64,000 nt of DNA from Kutzneria viridogrisea. Its GTDB lineage: Bacteria; Actinomycetota; Actinomycetes; Mycobacteriales; Pseudonocardiaceae. Both the position numbers and the translations under genes were made by a program. This document shows, one piece after another, positions 4,256 to 63,397 of this stretch (within the stretch, counting starts at the first letter, position 1; the number at the start of each line of letters is the position of its first letter). Under the pieces are notes generated by a model, which was given only the letters and a program-made list of their open reading frames with translations, was not told where the DNA came from and did no database searches. The stretch covers positions 744,001 through 808,000 of the forward strand of contig JACJID010000004.1 of assembly GCA_014138725.1 (NCBI GenBank). The letters are read 5' to 3'.

Positions 4256-4562
4256 GTGGTTGAGGGGCGTGAGGGGGTAGACGGGGTGCTGCGGGGTTCG
4301 GGCGTGGGGGCGGTGGGCGAGGTTGGCGGGCGGCCCGCGGAGATGCGGCGCGTGTCGGCGGTTGCGGGGCGGCGTGTCGGCGCTAGCGGGGCGGTGTGTT
4401 GGTGGTTCGCGTACGGCGTGTTGGTGATTGCGGGGTGGCGTGTTGGGCGGTCGTGGGCGGCGTGTCCCGCTGTCCGGAGCGCGAGTCCCGTTCAGAGGGG
4501 CGCGAGTCCCGGTGTCCGGAGGGCGAGTCCCGTTCCGGGGAGGGCGAGTCCCGGCGTGAGGG
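4256..4562 (+). repeat. degenerate 21-22 bp tandem array (left part)
   Basis: This gene-free stretch becomes a tandem array from about 4343. Units first read like GCGTGTCGGCGGTTGCGGGG and then change, near 4490, to a second type built on GCGAGTCCCG. Spacing between successive cores is about 20-22 bp, roughly two helical turns. All reading frames are almost stop-free because of composition, but none has a ribosome-binding site or a recognisable product. The array continues into the DUF222/HNH element that begins at 4563. Confidence 0.7.
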
Positions 4563-4670
4563 GTGCGAGTCCCGTTGTGGGGAGGGCGAGTCCCGTTGCC
4601 TGGTGCGCGTGTCCCGTTCTGGGTGTGAGTCCCGGCTTCTGGTGGGTGTTGGAGTTTGCGGGGTGCACAC

Positions 4671-4698
4671 GGGGTGTGTCGGGGTTGGGGGTGTGGGG
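4671..4698 (+). other. guanine-quadruplex motif in element head
   Basis: Four guanine runs of 4, 4, 5 and 4 are separated by loops of 6, 2 and 3 bases, which satisfies the usual G4 consensus. The same arrangement is preserved on the opposite strand in copy 2 (43203-43230). Folding is predicted from pattern only. Confidence 0.55.
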
Positions 4699-4820
4699 TT
4701 GGTTTGGTGCGGGTCCCTCGCGGCGGCCTGTGATCGGGGTTTCCGAGGCATGGGGGGATGCCCCGATTCGCCGACGAGCGTAAGGCCGCCGCTACCCGCA
4801 CAAAACCAACCCCGGGTTGG

Positions 4821-5251
4821 TGGGCGGTGTGCGGGGGTTGGTGCGGTGCGTGTCGGACGTTACGGGGTGGTGTGTCGGCGGTTGGGGTGCGGTGTGTCGG
4901 ACGTTGGGGTGTCGCGTGTTCGGTGTTCTGGGGTGGTGTGTCGGACGTTGCGGGATGGTGTGTCGGCGTGTCCGGGGTGGTGTGTCGGACGTTCCGGTGC
5001 GGCGTGTTCGGTGTTCTGGTGTGGTGTGTTGGCGGTTGCGGGCGGCGTGTCCGGCTGGCCGGAGCGCGAGTCCCGGGCTGGGGAGGCGAGTCCCGTTCTC
5101 GGGCAAGCGAGTCCCGGGCTGAGGGGCGCGAGTCCCGTTCTGGGGTAGGTGAGTCCCGGGCTCCGGTGGGTGAGTCTCGCTGACTGGAGGGTGAGTTCCG
5201 TTGTGGGGTGGGTGAGTCTCGCTGACTGGCCCGGCTTGGGTTGTGGTGTGG
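4821..5251 (+). repeat. 431-bp tandem array present only in copy 1
   Basis: Copy 2 joins the sequence ending ...CCCCGGGTTGG directly to TCACCCACATGGG. Copy 1 has 431 bp between the same two sequences. The extra segment is about 18 units of 21-22 bp. The first ten have cores like GTGTGTCGGACGTT or CGTGTTCGGTGTTCT; the next eight have cores like GCGAGTCCCG or TGAGTCTCG. It therefore repeats the same two-part order (GTGTCGG units, then GAGTCCCG units) as the array at 4343-4640. It may have arisen by unequal exchange or slippage, or as a separate insertion. Confidence 0.7.
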
Positions 5252-5317
5252 TCACCCACATGGGTAGTCGTTGGTGGGCAACGGTTTTGTGGTGGATTGA
5301 GGAGTAGAATTGTTGGT

Positions 5318-6430
5318 ATGACAGCATTCGTGGACGATCGACCCGCCACAGAGGTGTGGCGGTTGGGGGACGCGGAGCTGTTGGGTGATTTGCAGGACGC
5401 GGAAGTGGTTCTGCGGCAAGCGTATGCGAAGGTTCTTGGGTTGGTTGCGGAAGCGGATGCGCGGGGTGTGGCGGAGCGGGTGGGGTATCCGAGCCTGGCA
5501 GAGTTGCTGCGTGGTGTGCTCTGCGTGAGTAAGAAGGAAGCCAGGCAGCGGATCGCGCACGCGGGCGTTCCGGTGGGGGTGGCGTTGGAGCCGGAGCAGT
5601 TGTCGGTGATCAACCGGGTACTGAGAGAACTGCCGCCACACGTGGATCAGACCGAGCGCGGACACGCCGTGGAGGTCCTGGCAGCAGCGGCCCAGTCGCT
5701 GGACGCCTCCAACCTGGTGCCGCTGGGCCGGGAGATCGTCAACCGGCTGGACCCCGACGGGGCGCTACCGGGTGAGGACGAACTCGCCCATCCGCGACGG
5801 GAGTTCCGGTACGACACACGGCGGGACGGGTCAGTACGGTTCCATGGGCGCCTGGACGCGGAGACCGGCGCACTGCTGGGGGCCATCCTCAGCCCGCTGG
5901 CGAAACCACACGACGCCCACGACACACGCACCCTGCCCGAACGGCAAGGAGACGCGTTCGCGGAACTACTGGAAACCAGCACCACCCCCACCGAAGGCGG
6001 AGAACGCTCCCACATCGCAGTAACAGTGCCATACCAGACCCTGCGAACAGGGCTCGGTACCGCCGAACTCGCCCCATCAGCGATCCGCCGACTGGCCTGC
6101 GACGCGAAGGTCCTCCCAGTAGTGCTGGGCAGCAACTCCGAACCCCTCGACATCGGGCGGATCAGCTACACCGTGCCACCCCACCTCCGACGAGCACTCA
6201 TCGTCAGGGACAAACACTGCGCCTTCCCCGGATGCAGAAGACGACCCAGCACCTGTCACGCACACCACATCGTCCACTGGGCCAACGGAGGAGACACCGC
6301 ACTGGCCAACCTGGTGCTGCTCTGTGGAATGCACCATCGACTCATCCACCACAGCGGCTGGACAGTGCGGATCACCAACGGGCGGCCGGAGTTCACGCCG
6401 CCGAGCTGGCTCAGCAGGAGACGGCAGTAG
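5318..6430 (+). CDS. DUF222 domain HNH endonuclease (13E12 repeat family)
   Basis: This 370-residue protein starts at ATG 5318. The N-terminal two-thirds is the DUF222 region (LGDAELLGDLQDAEVVLRQA onward). The C-terminal HNH nuclease domain has a zinc-type motif: CAFPGC, then CHAHHIVHWANGGDT, then LCGMHHRLIHH. It is nearly identical to the protein at 41905-43014, differing mainly at the extreme N-terminus, around residues 105-115 and in the last six residues (WLSRRRQ here, FVKRRN there). Proteins of this family occur in many copies in actinobacteria; their biochemical role is not established. The stop lies only 10 bp before the biotin-transporter gene start. Confidence 0.9.
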   Translation: MTAFVDDRPATEVWRLGDAELLGDLQDAEVVLRQAYAKVLGLVAEADARGVAERVGYPSLAELLRGVLCVSKKEARQRIAHAGVPVGVALEPEQLSVINRVLRELPPHVDQTERGHAVEVLAAAAQSLDASNLVPLGREIVNRLDPDGALPGEDELAHPRREFRYDTRRDGSVRFHGRLDAETGALLGAILSPLAKPHDAHDTRTLPERQGDAFAELLETSTTPTEGGERSHIAVTVPYQTLRTGLGTAELAPSAIRRLACDAKVLPVVLGSNSEPLDIGRISYTVPPHLRRALIVRDKHCAFPGCRRRPSTCHAHHIVHWANGGDTALANLVLLCGMHHRLIHHSGWTVRITNGRPEFTPPSWLSRRRQ

Positions 6431-7614: not shown

Positions 7615-8281
7615 CGGGGTCAGCCACTGGTACGGCCAGCGGCAGGTGCTCGCGGACCTCACGCTGAGCCTGGGCGAGCGACGGGTCGGCGTGGTCGGCT
7701 CGAACGGCTCGGGCAAGAGCACCTTCGCGAGGCTGCTCAACGGGCTGCTGGTGCCCGGTGAGGGCCAGGTCAGGGTGGACGGGCTGGACACCCGCAAGCA
7801 GGGCAAGGCGGTGCGCCGCAAGGTCGGCTTCGTGTTCCAGGACCCGGACGTGCAGATCGTGATGCCCACGGTGGGCGAGGACCTGGCGTTCGGGCTCAAG
7901 CACCGGGGCCAGGACAAGGCGGAGATCGCACGGCGGGTGGACGCCGCGCTGGCCCAGTACGGGCTGGCGGAGCTGCGCGAGCACCCGGCGCACCTGCTCA
8001 GCGGGGGCCAGAAGCAACTGCTGGCGATCGCGGCGGTGCTGATCACCGAACCGACACACGTGATCTTCGACGAGCCGACGACCCTGCTGGACCTGGGCAA
8101 CCGGCGGCGCATCGCGCGGCTGATCCGGGACATGGACCAGCAGGTGGTGGTGGTCTCGCACGACCTGGACCTGCTGGCGGACTTCGACCGGGTGCTGGTG
8201 TTCGACAGGGGACGGGTGGTCGCGGACGGCAAGCCGGACGGGTGCATCGCCACCTACCAGGCGATGCACCCGCCGCTGTAG
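7601..8281 (+). CDS. bioM: ECF transporter ATPase, biotin type
   Basis: This 226-residue ABC ATPase starts at GTG 7601 inside the end of bioY. It has Walker [10 protein letters not shown], a Q-loop in [13 protein letters not shown] (typical of EcfA/CbiO proteins), signature [15 protein letters not shown], Walker [13 protein letters not shown] and switch histidine VVSHDLDLL. Only one ATPase is present, so it probably acts as a homodimer with the T and S components, as in BioMNY. The stop codon abuts the convergent glycosyltransferase stop at 8282, leaving no room for a separate terminator. Confidence 0.9.
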
Positions 8282-10030
8282 CTACCGCAGGTCGTAGACG
8301 GTGCTGCCGCCGACGGTTTTCGCGGTGTAGTGGGCGGCGACCCAGTTGGCGATCTCGCTGGAGCCCCGGTCCCGGCCGCCGGACACGTAGTAGCTGATCC
8401 TGCCCTCGGCCACCCACCGCTGGAACTGGGCGAGGGTCGGCGCGGGGTCGCTGCCGTCCCAGCCGCCGATGGCGATGACGGCCTTGCCGCTGCTGAGCTC
8501 CAGTTCGGCGGCCGAGTTGTCACCGGTGGTGGCGGCGGCCCAGGTGCTGGTGGTGGCCTTGAGCACGGCGGTCAGCTCCGCGCTGCTGCGCATGCCCATG
8601 CCGCCGGAGCTACTGGGGCCGGAGGTGGGGATGGACCCGCTGTGCGGCACGGCGGCGGTGGCGATGCCGAACCCGGAGGTCCCGGCGAGTGCGCAGGCCA
8701 GCACCACGGCGATGGCGGCCCGCCTGAGCAGGTCGGCGTGCAGGGCGATCAGCGCGGCGGCGATCACGCAGGTCACCAGCACGGCCCAGCGCAGCGCGGG
8801 CAGCCAGGACAAATCCCTTGCCAGCAGGGCGAAGTCCCAGAGCCCGGTGACCAGAACCGTTGCGGCCAAGGTGATCCGGACCGGGGTGTGCGCGCGGCCC
8901 CGCCACAGGGCACGGCCACCGATCGCGACCAGCGCGGCGATCGAGGGCGCCAGGGCCACCGTGTAGTACGGGTGGATGGTGCCGCTCATGAAGCTGAACA
9001 CCAGCCCGGTGACGAGCAGCCAGCCGCCCCACAGCAGCAGCGCGGCACGCGTGGGGTCGGTGCGCGGCGCACGGCGGCTGAACCACAGTCCGGCCACCAG
9101 CACGATCAGCGCGGCGGGCAGCAGCCAGGACACCTCGGTGCCCATGCTGGCGCCGAACAACCGGGTGATGCCGGTGGCGCCGCCGAACGCGGTGTTGCCG
9201 CCACCGCCCGGGCCCGAACCGCCGAAGATCCGGCCCAACCCGTTGTAGCCCAAGGCGAGCTGCCACAGGCTGTTGTTCGTGGAGCCGCCGATGTAGGGCC
9301 GCGAGGAGGCGGGCCACAGCTCCACCAGCAGCACGAACCAGCTGATCGAGACGACCAGCGCGGCCACGGCACCGGCGAGGTGGATCAGCCTGCGGCGCAA
9401 GGAGGTGGGCGCGGCGACAAGGTAAGCAAGGCCGAAACCGGGCAGCACCAGGAAGGCCTGCATCATCTTGGTGAGGAAGGCGAAGCCGATGGCGACCCCG
9501 GCCAGCGCGAGCCACCGGCCGCTGGCGGTCTCCGTGGCGCGCTGCACGCAGTAGGCGCCCGCCACGAGCAGCAGCACGAGCAGCGCGTCGGGGTTGTCGA
9601 AGCGGAACATCAGCACCGCCACCGGAGTCAGCGCCAGCACGGCCCCGGCGACCAGTCCGGCACCGGCACCGAACCGGCGTCGCACCGTGGCGTACAACAG
9701 GGCGACCGCGGCCACGCCCTCCAGGGCCTGCGGCACGAGCAGGCTCCAACTGGACAGGCCGAACAACCGCACGGACAGGCCCATCACCCACAGCGAGGCC
9801 GGTGGCTTGTCCACGGTGATCGCGTTGCCCGAGTCCAGGGAGCCGAACAGCCAGGCCGTCCAGTCCTGGCTGCCCGCCTGCGCGGCGGCGGCGTAGAAGC
9901 TGTTGGCGTAGCCCGAGGAACCCAGGTCCCACAGGTACAGCACGGCGGTGCCCAGTAGCAGCGCGAGCAGGGCCGGTCTCGCCCACCGCGGGTGGTCAGC
10001 TGTGCGTGTGTCGTTCAGTACCACCGTCAT
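8282..10030 (-). CDS. GT39-family membrane glycosyltransferase (YkcB-like)
   Basis: This 582-residue polytopic protein resembles ArnT/PMT-type glycosyltransferases that use polyprenyl-phosphate sugars on the outer membrane face. Family marks are NSFYAAAAQAGSQDWTAWLF and SGNAITVDKPPASLWVMG near residues 43-85, then about a dozen transmembrane helices. The last 150 residues form an extracytoplasmic domain (AVIAIGGWDGSDPAPTLAQF, then YYVSGGRDRGSSEIANWV) typical of the YkcB branch. The gene follows the sensor kinase gene by 45 bp on the same strand, so they are probably one transcript. The acceptor is unknown. Confidence 0.88.
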   Translation of the reverse strand: MTVVLNDTRTADHPRWARPALLALLLGTAVLYLWDLGSSGYANSFYAAAAQAGSQDWTAWLFGSLDSGNAITVDKPPASLWVMGLSVRLFGLSSWSLLVPQALEGVAAVALLYATVRRRFGAGAGLVAGAVLALTPVAVLMFRFDNPDALLVLLLVAGAYCVQRATETASGRWLALAGVAIGFAFLTKMMQAFLVLPGFGLAYLVAAPTSLRRRLIHLAGAVAALVVSISWFVLLVELWPASSRPYIGGSTNNSLWQLALGYNGLGRIFGGSGPGGGGNTAFGGATGITRLFGASMGTEVSWLLPAALIVLVAGLWFSRRAPRTDPTRAALLLWGGWLLVTGLVFSFMSGTIHPYYTVALAPSIAALVAIGGRALWRGRAHTPVRITLAATVLVTGLWDFALLARDLSWLPALRWAVLVTCVIAAALIALHADLLRRAAIAVVLACALAGTSGFGIATAAVPHSGSIPTSGPSSSGGMGMRSSAELTAVLKATTSTWAAATTGDNSAAELELSSGKAVIAIGGWDGSDPAPTLAQFQRWVAEGRISYYVSGGRDRGSSEIANWVAAHYTAKTVGGSTVYDLR

Positions 10031-40411: not shown

Positions 40412-41908
40412 GTGGCAGGACGCTCGGTCGCCGCTCTGGTCGGCAAGATCGCGCTGGCAATGGTCTCCGTGCTCGTGCTCGGCGCCACCGGGCTGGCCTG
40501 GGGCACCTTCCGCGAGTTGCAGGGGCTCGGCACCTCGCAGGCGATCTCCGGGGAGAGCAGCCCACCCGGCAGCACGCAGAACATCCTCGTGCTGGGGCTG
40601 ACCACCCGGAAGGGCATGAACGGGGAGGACCTACCCAAGGAGGTGCTCGACAACCTGCACGCCGGGGACTCCAGCGTCGGGGGCTACAACACCAACACCA
40701 TGATCGTGCTGCACGTGCCCGGCGACGGCAGCAAGGCCCAGGCTGTGTCCGTGCCCCGTGACGACTACGTCACCTTCGTGGACGGCCCGCTGCTCGGCAG
40801 CACCAAGGGCAAGCTCAAGGAGGCGTACGGCAAGGCCAAGGAACAGGAGCAGGAGCGGATCTACGCCCAGGGCGAGCGCGACCCCGCCACCCTCGAGCAG
40901 AAGGCCCGCGAGGCCGGGCGCGTGTCCGTGCGCAAGAACGTGGAGGCCCTGCTCAACATCCACATCGACCACCTCGCCGAGATCAGCCTCGCCGGGTTCT
41001 ACGACCTCGCCACCCAACTCGACGGCATCGACGTGTGCCTCAAGCACGCCACCAGCGACACCAACGCCGGGGCCAACTTCAAGCAGGGCCGCCAACACCT
41101 CAACGGCGCCCAGGCGCTGGCCTTCGTGCGGCAGCGCGACAACCTGCCCAACAACGACCTCGACCGCACCCACCGGCAGCAGGCCTTCCTCGCTTCCATC
41201 ACCACCAAGCTCAAGGAGCAGGGCGTCTTCGGCAACCTCGGCAAGCTCCAGGGCATGATCGACGTCGCCACCAAGGACGTGGTCATCGACAAGGGCTGGG
41301 ACCTGCTGTCCTTCGCCCAGCAGGCGCAGAACCTGACCGGCGGCAACATCGAGTTCCACACCCTGCCGATCAAGGGCTACGCCAAGGACCCCAACGACCC
41401 CAGCTCCGACATCAACCTCATCGACATCCCCTACGTCCAGGCCCTCGTGCAGACCCTGTTCAACCCCGCGCCCGCCGCCGCGCCGACCGCCCCCACGACC
41501 ACGACCCCCGCCCCTCCCCCCATCAAGGGCGGCGGCTCCACTGTGGACGTGCGCAACGGCATCGGCGAGGACGGTCTCGCCGCCAAACTCGCCAACGCCC
41601 TGTCCGGCTACGGCTTCACCAAGGGCGAGGCCACCTCCGTCGCCCCCCAGGCCTCCTCGCAGATCTTCTACGGCACCGGCGCCAAGGAGGACGCCCTCAA
41701 GCTCGCCCAGTTCTTCGGCGGCATCAAGGCCACCGCCAGCACCTCCGCCGCCCCCGGCCACGTCGCACTCTGGATCGGCAAGGGCTTCACCACCCCCACC
41801 GCCCTCGCCGGTGCCACCGCTGCCACGCCCACCACCACCGTGCCGGTGCCCACCGAGGGCCCGCAGGGCGGCGCCGTGGACGGCGGCGGAATCCCTTGCG
41901 TGGACTAG
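40412..41908 (+). CDS. LytR-CpsA-Psr (LCP) cell-wall ligase with LytR_C domain
   Basis: This 498-residue membrane protein starts at GTG 40412, with GGGGAG 5 bases upstream. It has an N-terminal transmembrane helix (LALMVSVLVLG-type segment, residues 12-33), then the LCP catalytic domain with VSVPRDDYVTF, and RQRDNLPNNDLDRTHRQQAF, whose Asp/Arg residues bind pyrophosphate and polyprenol. After a Pro/Thr linker (TTTTPAPPPIKGG) comes the LytR_C domain (VDVRNGIGEDGLAAKLANAL). Such enzymes attach wall glycopolymers to peptidoglycan (arabinogalactan in mycolata). The stop overlaps that of the convergent HNH gene in the sequence CTAG. Confidence 0.92.
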   Translation: MAGRSVAALVGKIALAMVSVLVLGATGLAWGTFRELQGLGTSQAISGESSPPGSTQNILVLGLTTRKGMNGEDLPKEVLDNLHAGDSSVGGYNTNTMIVLHVPGDGSKAQAVSVPRDDYVTFVDGPLLGSTKGKLKEAYGKAKEQEQERIYAQGERDPATLEQKAREAGRVSVRKNVEALLNIHIDHLAEISLAGFYDLATQLDGIDVCLKHATSDTNAGANFKQGRQHLNGAQALAFVRQRDNLPNNDLDRTHRQQAFLASITTKLKEQGVFGNLGKLQGMIDVATKDVVIDKGWDLLSFAQQAQNLTGGNIEFHTLPIKGYAKDPNDPSSDINLIDIPYVQALVQTLFNPAPAAAPTAPTTTTPAPPPIKGGGSTVDVRNGIGEDGLAAKLANALSGYGFTKGEATSVAPQASSQIFYGTGAKEDALKLAQFFGGIKATASTSAAPGHVALWIGKGFTTPTALAGATAATPTTTVPVPTEGPQGGAVDGGGIPCVD

Positions 41909-43014
41909 TTTCTTCGCTTGACGAAGCTCGGCGGGGTGAACTCCGGCTGCCCGTTGGTGATTCGTACTGTCCAGCCGCTGTGGTGGATGAGTCGGTGGTG
42001 CATTCCGCACAGCAGCACCAGGTTGGACAGTGCGGTGTCTCCTCCGTTGGCCCAGTGGGTGATGTGGTGTGCGTGGCAGGTGCTGGGTCGTCTTCTGCAT
42101 CCCGGGAATGCGCAGTGCTGGTCCCTGACGATCAGTGCTCGTCGGAGGTGGGGCGGCACGGTGTAGCTGATCCGCCCGATGTCGAGTGGTTCGGAGTTGC
42201 TGCCCAGTACTACTGGGATCACCTTCGCGTCACAGGCGAGTCGGCGGACCGCTGATGGGGAGAGTTCGGTGGTGCCGAGCCCGTTCTGGAGTGTTGTCAG
42301 CGGGATCGTCACCGCGATGTGGGGGCGTTCCCCACCCTCCGTCGGCGTGGAGCTGGTCTCCAGCAGTTCCGCGAACGCGTCCCCTTGCCGTTCGGGCAGG
42401 GGGCGGGTGTCGCCTGCGCCGTGTGGTTTCGCCAGCGGGCTGAGCACGGCCCCCAGCAGTGCGCCAGTCTCCGCGTCCAGGCACCCCTGGAACCGTACTG
42501 ACCCGTCCCGCCGTGTGTCGTACCGGAACTCCCGTCGCGGATGGGCGAGTTCGTCCTCACCCGGTAGCGCCCCGTCGGGGTCCAGCCGGTTGACGATCTC
42601 CCGGCCCAGCGGCACCAGGTTGGAGGCGTCCAGCGACTGGGCCGCTGCTGCCAGGACCTCGACAGCCTGCTCCCGGTCGGCTGCACCGATGTGTGGCGGC
42701 AACTCCCGTAGCACCCGGTCGATCACCGACAACTGCTCCGGCTCCAGTGGAACTGCCACCGGAACCCCCGCGTGCGCGATCCGCTGCCTGGCTTCCTTCT
42801 TGCTCACGCAGAGCACACCGCGCAGCAACTCCGCCAGGCTCGGATACCCCACCCGCTCCGCCACACCCCGCGCATCCGCTTCCGCAACCAACCCAAGAAC
42901 CTTCGCATACGCTTGCCGCAGAACCACTTCCGCGTCCTGCAACTCACCCAACAGCTCCGCATCCCCCAACCGCCACAACCCTGCGGCAGGCCGAGTCTCC
43001 ACGAATGCTGTCAT
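41905..43014 (-). CDS. DUF222 domain HNH endonuclease, copy 2
   Basis: This 369-residue protein starts at ATG 43014. Its DUF222 region and HNH domain (CAFPGC, CHAHHITHWANGGDT, LCGMHHRLIHH) match the copy at 5318-6430 over almost the whole length. The last six residues (FVKRRN) are outside the repeated segment, because the DNA homology ends at 41925, so the insertion junction lies inside the end of the reading frame. The gene is convergent with the LCP gene and overlaps its stop. Confidence 0.9.
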   Translation of the reverse strand: MTAFVETRPAAGLWRLGDAELLGELQDAEVVLRQAYAKVLGLVAEADARGVAERVGYPSLAELLRGVLCVSKKEARQRIAHAGVPVAVPLEPEQLSVIDRVLRELPPHIGAADREQAVEVLAAAAQSLDASNLVPLGREIVNRLDPDGALPGEDELAHPRREFRYDTRRDGSVRFQGCLDAETGALLGAVLSPLAKPHGAGDTRPLPERQGDAFAELLETSSTPTEGGERPHIAVTIPLTTLQNGLGTTELSPSAVRRLACDAKVIPVVLGSNSEPLDIGRISYTVPPHLRRALIVRDQHCAFPGCRRRPSTCHAHHITHWANGGDTALSNLVLLCGMHHRLIHHSGWTVRITNGQPEFTPPSFVKRRN

Positions 43015-43338
43015 ACCAACAATTCTACCCCCCAATCCACCACAAAACCGTTGCCCACCAACGACTACCCATGTGGGTGACCAACCCGGGGTTGGTTTTG
43101 TGCGGGTAGCGGCGGCCTTACGCTCGTCGGCGAATCGGGGCATCCCCCCATGCCCCGGAAACCCCGATCCAAGGCCGCCGCGAGGGACCCGCACCAAACC
43201 AACCCCACACCCCCAACCCCGACACACCCCGTGTACACCCCGCAAACTCCAACACCCACCAGAAGCCGGGACTCACACCCACAACGGGACACGCGCACCA
43301 GGCAACGGGACTCGCCCTCCCCACAACGGGACTCGCAC
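41925..43338 (-). mobile_element. DUF222/HNH repeat element, copy 2
   Basis: This is the inverted counterpart of 4563-6407. From right to left it has four or five GAGTCCCG units (to about 43250), the G-rich head with the quadruplex motif, a 75-bp segment starting with CGGGTCCC and containing ATGCCCCGATTCGCC, and the HNH gene. The 431-bp array of copy 1 is absent here. It is inserted between the LCP gene end and a DUF1015 gene. Confidence 0.7.
43203..43230 (-). other. guanine-quadruplex motif, copy 2 head
   Basis: On the minus strand, guanine runs of 4, 4, 5 and 4 with loops of 6, 2 and 3 bases occur at the same position relative to the HNH gene as in copy 1, so the pattern has been kept. Confidence 0.55.
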
Positions 43339-58885: not shown

Positions 58886-59074
58886 CTCGGCGAGTCCCAG
58901 CGCGCGACCACCCCGTGCCGCGCGTGTCGGCGCTTCGTGTGCGGTGTGTCGGCGCTTGGCGCGCGGTTTCCCAGATCGCGGGAGCCCGTACCGCAAGTGC
59001 GAACTCGCTGTACCGCAAGCGCCGACACGCGGTACCGGAAACGCCGACACGCGCGGGTTTCCCCAGGCCGGGAC
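58886..59074. repeat. dispersed 22-bp repeat units with inverted orientation
   Basis: In this 189-bp convergent gap, left-hand units read like CGCGTGTCGGCGCTTCGTGTG. After GCGGGAGCCC the units run in the opposite sense (TACCGCAAGCGCCGACACGC, 22-bp period). GTGTCGGCGCTT and AAGCGCCGACAC are exact inverse complements, so a hairpin is possible. It could terminate both convergent genes. A GAGTCCC unit is at the left edge. Confidence 0.55.
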
Positions 59075-63342: not shown

Positions 63343-63397
63343 TGTCATGAAAGTGCCGTTCCTGGCACCTGACGCCAGGAACGGCACTTTCATGACA
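63343..63397. terminator. perfect 24-bp-stem hairpin between convergent genes
   Basis: Bases 63343-63366 pair exactly with 63374-63397, with a 7-base loop (ACCTGAC). The right arm contains the stop codon of the HD-GYP gene. The arm begins TGTCATGAAAGTGCCGTTCC. From memory, a similar ATGAAAGTGCCGTTC motif recurs in intergenic hairpins of related Pseudonocardiales genomes. Confidence 0.85.

Follow-up and report, generated by a model that had tools for sequence, protein, structure and literature searches.

DUF222/HNH genes and long imperfect hairpins in Kutzneria viridogrisea: a candidate hairpin-ended mobile family

Two copies in the window and their family in the genome

The window, the whole 64,000-nucleotide stretch of Kutzneria viridogrisea DNA analysed here, carries two DUF222/HNH genes on opposite strands. 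Copy A lies at 5318–6430 on the forward strand (370 aa; PF02720 E 1.6e-31, PF01844 E 9.8e-05) and copy B at 41905–43014 on the reverse strand (369 aa), and Pfam detects DUF222 and HNH in both genes and nothing else. BLAST of the window against itself aligned the copies in two opposite-strand blocks: a non-coding head, 4563–4821 (forward) against 43338–43080 (reverse), with 98.1% identity over 259 bp, and the leader plus gene, 5249–6407 against 43083–41925, with 91.05% identity over 1162 bp. The leader itself (5249–5317, forward) is immediately 5′ of the start codon and is conserved in 15 close copies. A preliminary description of this DNA had presented the two copies as near identical across the HNH gene and the region upstream; both blocks bear this out, but the identity is not continuous, as a 427-bp array of degenerate short repeats fills the gap between head and leader (4822–5248) in A and is missing from B. 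A second array of short degenerate repeats, with GTGTGTCGG and GCGAGTCCCG units, runs from 4290 to 4650, 5′ of hairpin A and overlapping the start of the common head, and 4352–4648 is self-similar to 4872–5229 in the same BLAST. Elsewhere in the window, a 137-bp palindrome at 58919–59055 is composed of short GTGTCGGCG units, the same as in the arrays around copy A, and has no hairpin-model match, and a short inverted repeat at 63349–63391 (GAAAGTGCCGTTCCTGGC, 18/18 arm positions) is unrelated in sequence to the head.

The DNA that gene A has in common with B stops at 6407, and the last codons and the stop codon are flanking sequence. The same sharp right end is seen across 15 copies of this genome, in which the frequency of the commonest base is mostly 0.6–0.9 until about TCAGGCGAAGA and about 0.3–0.5 thereafter. 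Each of the 15 close copies draws its last codons and stop from its own flank, with an in-frame stop 12–22 codons past the common Glu codon in 14 and none within 29 codons in the other; for A and B, the preliminary description had noted a sharp end inside the coding frame on the 3′ side that leaves each copy its own last residues. The HNH stop of copy B overlaps, in the CTAG at 41905–41908, the stop of a convergent open frame (40412–41908), and one further locus (L059) appears similar, so that some copies sit at the stop codon of a neighbour.

The element is not confined to the two copies first described. A search of the 10.25 Mb genome returned 16 heads at 84–100% identity and three at 73–75%, a further row at 68% being the palindrome read backwards; three more heads lie beside distant paralogues, and remnants lie beside others. 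The DUF222/HNH genes comprise 13 near-complete copies at 86–100% identity (one with an internal stop), two split copies and many more distant relatives. Among the 15 close copies the distance from the head start to the start codon ranges from 214 to 1128 bp. The hairpin model described below gave 43 matches in the genome, and all 22 that were listed are forward matches, 5′ of a DUF222/HNH gene and on its strand, while the remaining 21 are probably opposite-strand echoes. One of the 22 (C1:421132) is the outer head of a tandem pair. Tandem heads of different subtypes were noted 5′ of a single HNH gene at locus L054 (3038–3152 and 3672–3787; C1:421096 and C1:421740). Within this genome the hairpin subtypes go with the paralogue types. 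A scan 3′ of the genes of this genome revealed no second hairpin of the head type; two copies have palindromes on that side, paired at 16 and 17 of 19 arm positions, with no likeness to the head. Beside one copy (L063), an array of near-perfect tandem repeats of GAGTCCCG 5′ of the hairpin suggests a recent local expansion.

A covarying hairpin at the core of the head

The head is built around a 115-bp imperfect palindrome, located at 4697–4811 (forward) in copy A, where 17 of 18 arm positions pair and a model match spans 4696–4813, and at 43090–43204 (reverse) in copy B, where it is identified by arm pairing and a model match. The outer stem of the hairpin contains a G.A mismatch and is followed by a CCCT bulge, a second stem and an apical stem–loop, with AGCGTA between the inner stems. 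The statement that no terminal inverted repeats were seen thus needs qualification: the head core is itself an inverted repeat (17/18 outer arm positions), although neither window copy has a 3′ hairpin of this kind. The covariance model (R2), which was built from relatives, recovers both known hairpins in the window and no third, with one extra row (E 0.09) that we regard as noise.

The layout of the hairpin is kept beside paralogues only 26–30% identical in protein, in which both sides of the stems have changed, so the conservation of the head extends to other copies and to distant paralogues. In a MAFFT alignment of 16 diverse hairpins, in which the relatives came from a structure-aware model, 80.3% of cells pair, compared to 68.3% in shuffles and 42–52% with the partner slid, and double-sided changes occupy 75 cells compared to 28.2 in shuffles and 8–25 when slid. 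For the same sequences, the number of further pair types is not exceptional (54 of 500 shuffles are equally high) and the apical stem is weak, with 51% of cells paired. A CCC–GGG pairing proposed by RNAalifold was dropped, as the facing bulge is not G-rich in every relative.

The composition of the arms bears on the nature of the folded strand. In the outer 18 positions of 96 distinct hairpins (1728 positions), selected using the TANNNT motif discussed below, 1649 are Watson–Crick pairs and the rest are A.G (50, most of them where the conserved mismatch lies), A.C (14), G.T (3) and others (12); the scan required at least 14 of 18 Watson–Crick positions with the first three paired, and favours neither G.T nor A.C. 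The G.T count refers to the inward strand, and the other strand would give 14, mostly common to related copies. As a functional RNA of the inward strand would tolerate G.U, the near-absence of G.T in these sequences fits a DNA hairpin better than an RNA. Matched changes in palindromes could also arise by template-switch correction, but the persistence of the mismatch and bulges, which such correction would be expected to erase, argues against it. The hairpin may function as folded DNA, either as a single strand or as a cruciform.

Hairpin pairs and occupied sites in relatives

The covariance model finds the hairpin in 12 of 150 genomes of the family, K. viridogrisea included. In Kutzneria sp. 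CA-103260, 35 of the 40 hairpins listed (79 in all) lie within 1 kb of a DUF222 gene (42 listed of 58). All 35 of these listed, gene-adjacent hairpins point inward, 20 on the 5′ side at 351–382 bp and 15 on the 3′ side at 298–478 bp. The chance of this arrangement is about 1e-64 if copies are assumed to be independent, which they are not, so that the figure overstates the case. Of the 42 listed genes, only 21 lie within 1.5 kb of a hairpin in the list. Across 14 elements, left and right hairpins show about the same likeness within an element as between elements (0.936 vs 0.931).

Among 80 type-A loci the model gave 33 matches at only 16 loci, and nine (eight in Lentzea and L228 in Labedaea) have an inverted hairpin pair at both ends. 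Terminal inverted repeats are thus present in Kutzneria sp. CA-103260, in genomes G109 and G147, in the eight Lentzea loci and in the Labedaea locus, and absent from the window copies. Four other Labedaea loci carry the model's hairpin on the 3′ side, and on the 5′ side several Labedaea loci carry a palindrome of another, shorter kind. In Lentzea sp. NBRC 105346, unrelated 70-bp palindromes occur at both ends of the DUF222 gene at one locus (L267) and on its 3′ side at another (L272). No target-site duplication was seen by eye, at element ends mapped less finely than to the base.

Two sites in Lentzea provide a comparison of presence and absence. In Lentzea aerocolonigenes, an insert of about 2.36 kb 3′ of typA contains both hairpins and extends beyond them by about 85 and 180 bp, and locus L268 matches this insert at 100%. 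Among 23 other Lentzea genomes, 15 show the two flanks but nothing that matches the insert, with just 2 bases between the flanks in G408; seven have pieces related to the element, which in L280 and L285 include a whole palindrome standing alone, and the last lies near a contig edge. At the second site, after groEL, six of 24 Lentzea genomes (L. aerocolonigenes included) have the 5′ hairpin and gene within the DNA covered, five have a lone hairpin beside the right flank, in five the right flank has no whole hairpin beside it (G408, among these, seems to retain a piece of an arm), and eight could not be judged from the DNA covered. A tree of the typA and groEL ends, whose labels identify just three of the five hairpin-free genomes, places the hairpin-plus-gene state in two separate clades with modest support (0.783 and 0.724), so that repeated gain or recurrent use of one site and repeated loss are both possible. 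Five lone Lentzea hairpins (L280, L285, L289, L348 and L353) share an extra left part, GGCGAAGCCGAGGCGTGTGAACC, which was not noticed in two full elements, and in this they resemble a non-autonomous relative.

For the window copies, no HNH gene was found within 1.5 kb beside the downstream gene of copy A in seven relatives that have this gene (37–57% identical), or beside the upstream gene of copy B in 11. This gives absence for A and B, and no exact empty site because synteny is lost; the preliminary description had called for a comparison of empty sites, and Lentzea shows presence and absence at two single sites. Its view of a mobile unit whose non-coding 5′ part is conserved like the protein is supported, since copies confined to one locus in related genomes and heads without conservation were both looked for and neither was found, with the qualification that some Lentzea species have one element in common at the locus after groEL. 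The element is probably mobile; what the sequences show directly is that single sites have it in some genomes and lack it in others.

A REPtron-like reading and its alternatives

At the level of sequence, the copies are repeated, the hairpin covaries, inverted hairpins flank the gene in several genera and the element is present or absent at single sites. We consider it probable, at about 0.6, that A and B belong to a mobile family that ends in long DNA hairpins and encodes a DUF222/HNH nuclease. As in some relatives, a complete element would consist of a hairpin, the gene and a second, inverted hairpin, each hairpin pointing inward; in the window copies the only hairpin is the 5′ one, and the right end lies inside the gene. 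In such a system, DUF222 would bind the hairpin, the HNH domain would nick at or beside it, and copying or pasting of the unit would pass through an intermediate that is single-stranded or formed in break repair. The closest working analogy may be the REPtrons (TnpAREP/RAYT), in which the gene lies beside or between palindromes in both orientations, palindromes are also dispersed alone, and irregularities in the stem influence how one REP group is recognised (PMC8266576). In both cases inverted palindromes would flank a nuclease gene and also occur dispersed and alone, which here holds for relatives, whereas the window genome has 5′ hairpins only. The differences are an HNH gene in place of the HUH transposase (TnpAREP) and the size of the hairpins, about 115–150 nt here, while REP palindromes are given as 20–40 bp (PMC3733652). 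If the likeness holds, the hairpin-end logic of REP/RAYT systems may apply to a second class of nuclease as well.

Repeats of the REP13E12 or DUF222-HNH type are about 1.4 kb long, and genes A and B, being DUF222 plus HNH (PF02720 and PF01844), multicopy and dispersed, match their features. The literature names REP13E12/DUF222 repeats as repetitive (PMC10589994) and, for Mycobacterium tuberculosis, describes them as having no defined function, prone to gene conversion and containing a putative prophage attachment site (PMC13061034); the titles and abstract openings covered describe no hairpin at their ends. We examined 28 DUF222 loci of the order, one per genome, 27 of them from other families and two with a flank cut at a contig end. 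The hairpin model gave no match on the 28 up to E 0.1, and no long palindrome lies outside the matched region in the 27, one of which has a 68-bp palindrome overlapping the 3′ end; the single locus from the same family (L330) has a palindrome 278 bp upstream. The REP13E12 label given in the preliminary description is therefore right for the protein family and is not supported for the head, which sets the elements described here apart from those DUF222 loci outside the Pseudonocardiaceae. An order-wide search found the hairpin in 8 of 298 genomes, a count that says little about absence because only 12 candidate places were scored per genome, and DUF222 genes are present in 48 of 61 sampled genomes of the order. 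A conserved hairpin of fixed geometry offers a concrete substrate for tests of REP13E12-type repeats, and the spread of DUF222 repeats becomes testable in non-pathogenic soil actinomycetes.

The hairpins could instead be REP- or MITE-like intergenic repeats that spread independently, at which DUF222/HNH units land or recombine, or between which such units were captured, in which case they would not be ends acted on by the nuclease. Numbers of hairpin matches and DUF222 genes, where matches may include opposite-strand echoes, are 43 and 0 in G119, 5 and 0 in G350, 2 and 0 in G134, and 43 and 1 in G078, and hairpins where no DUF222 gene was found suggest that something else may spread them. Of 13 loci sampled from G119, G350 and G078, 11 have their lone hairpin flanked on either side by predicted open frames, and the five lone hairpins among the 24 genomes at the right end of the groEL site point the same way. 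Against it stand the gene-adjacent hairpins listed for Kutzneria sp. CA-103260, all pointing inward at narrowly spread distances, the subtypes that track paralogue types in the window genome, and the typA insert with both hairpins together, and we regard independent spread as rather unlikely.

It is also conceivable, though unlikely, that A and B are old insertions homogenised among paralogues and no longer moving. REP13E12 loci of M. tuberculosis are called gene-conversion hotspots (PMC13061034), the heads of A and B (98%) are more alike than the genes (91%), split copies are present, and one element occupies the same groEL locus in several Lentzea species, all of which would fit this view. 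Copies at different places with sharp ends, and presence and absence among congeners, speak against it.

The outward strand of the hairpin usually carries a −10-like motif, TANNNT, which is TACGCT in both window copies, at 4777–4782 on the reverse strand in A, a position conserved in many relatives, and at 43119–43124 on the forward strand in B, as read from the sequence. In 19 long hairpins picked by palindrome alone, a set with five different cores and many close relatives that leaves out 10 of 29 palindromes as short or unrelated, TANNNT is present in all. It occurs in 17 of 22 hairpins picked by the covariance model, being missing in all four of G119 and the one of G250, and it can be read in three of the five lone hairpins at the Lentzea groEL site. 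The expectation is 0.11–0.14 per hairpin, and the other strand has the motif at the same place in none. A count of 96 of 96 was not used, as those hairpins were selected by this motif and the count is circular. In 26 DNA folds, of which the motif-picked set supplied 19, mean pairing is 0.95 in the −35 region, 0.90 in the spacer and 0.46 in the −10 box (0.17–0.90 for single hairpins). A promoter scan of 4550–5350 with the E. coli-type consensus gave no promoter, which leaves the TANNNT pattern as the basis of the promoter-like reading.

Single-strand promoters are known, one being the complementary-strand origin of M13. Another is Frpo, whose fold is described as mimicking a duplex for the host RNA polymerase (PMC11541004). 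The hairpin may share with Frpo-type promoters a layout in which one strand holds −35-like and −10-like boxes in its 5′ arm, and in the predicted folds the −10 box is much less paired than the rest of the arm; unlike them, it is not on a conjugative plasmid, and 5 of the 22 model-picked hairpins lack TANNNT. A quite unlikely extension of the hairpin-ended reading, drawn from these motifs, is that the element moves via single-stranded DNA, with its ends as single-strand promoters and the strand released by an HNH rather than an HUH enzyme. The hairpin at the 3′ end of each separated strand would carry the −35-like and partly open −10-like boxes, and the host RNA polymerase could make an inward-pointing primer for second-strand synthesis. 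If true, prokaryotes would have a type of hairpin-ended transposon that the titles and abstract openings of the literature found do not describe.

The HEARO RNA of IscB systems is a structured element 5′ of an ORF and is mobile. These features recur here, and the only solved-structure matches of the HNH domain are IscB proteins (best E 8.3e-05), which with the conserved asymmetric bulges and the covariation could suggest that the head is a structured non-coding RNA partnering the HNH protein, as HEARO/omega RNA does with IscB. We consider this very unlikely given the 3 G.T among 1728 outer-arm positions on the inward strand, the hairpins inverted at both ends, the window head folded as RNA being no more stable than shuffled sequence (z −0.45), and Rfam giving no family at gathering score in the window, with one chance-level match to a miRNA family (E 0.17). 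The window genes also differ from HEARO/IscB in having no RuvC in Pfam, DNA-like arms and, in relatives, paired inverted hairpins; neither an IscB protein with RuvC and HNH nor an Rfam model match was found in the window, and the NCBIfam guided_IscB model scores far below its cut-off (20.2 of 175 bits, E 0.00026). A guide-like RNA was accordingly set aside as the main reading, the arms having almost no G.U-type pairs and the hairpins occurring in inverted pairs in relatives.

PADLOC matched neither of the two window proteins, and the hairpin had no match in 72,556 plasmid records. A DUF222/HNH gene was found in one of 50,697 phage records: MT835797.1, from human faecal samples, has a relative with 31% identity at 8071–9192.
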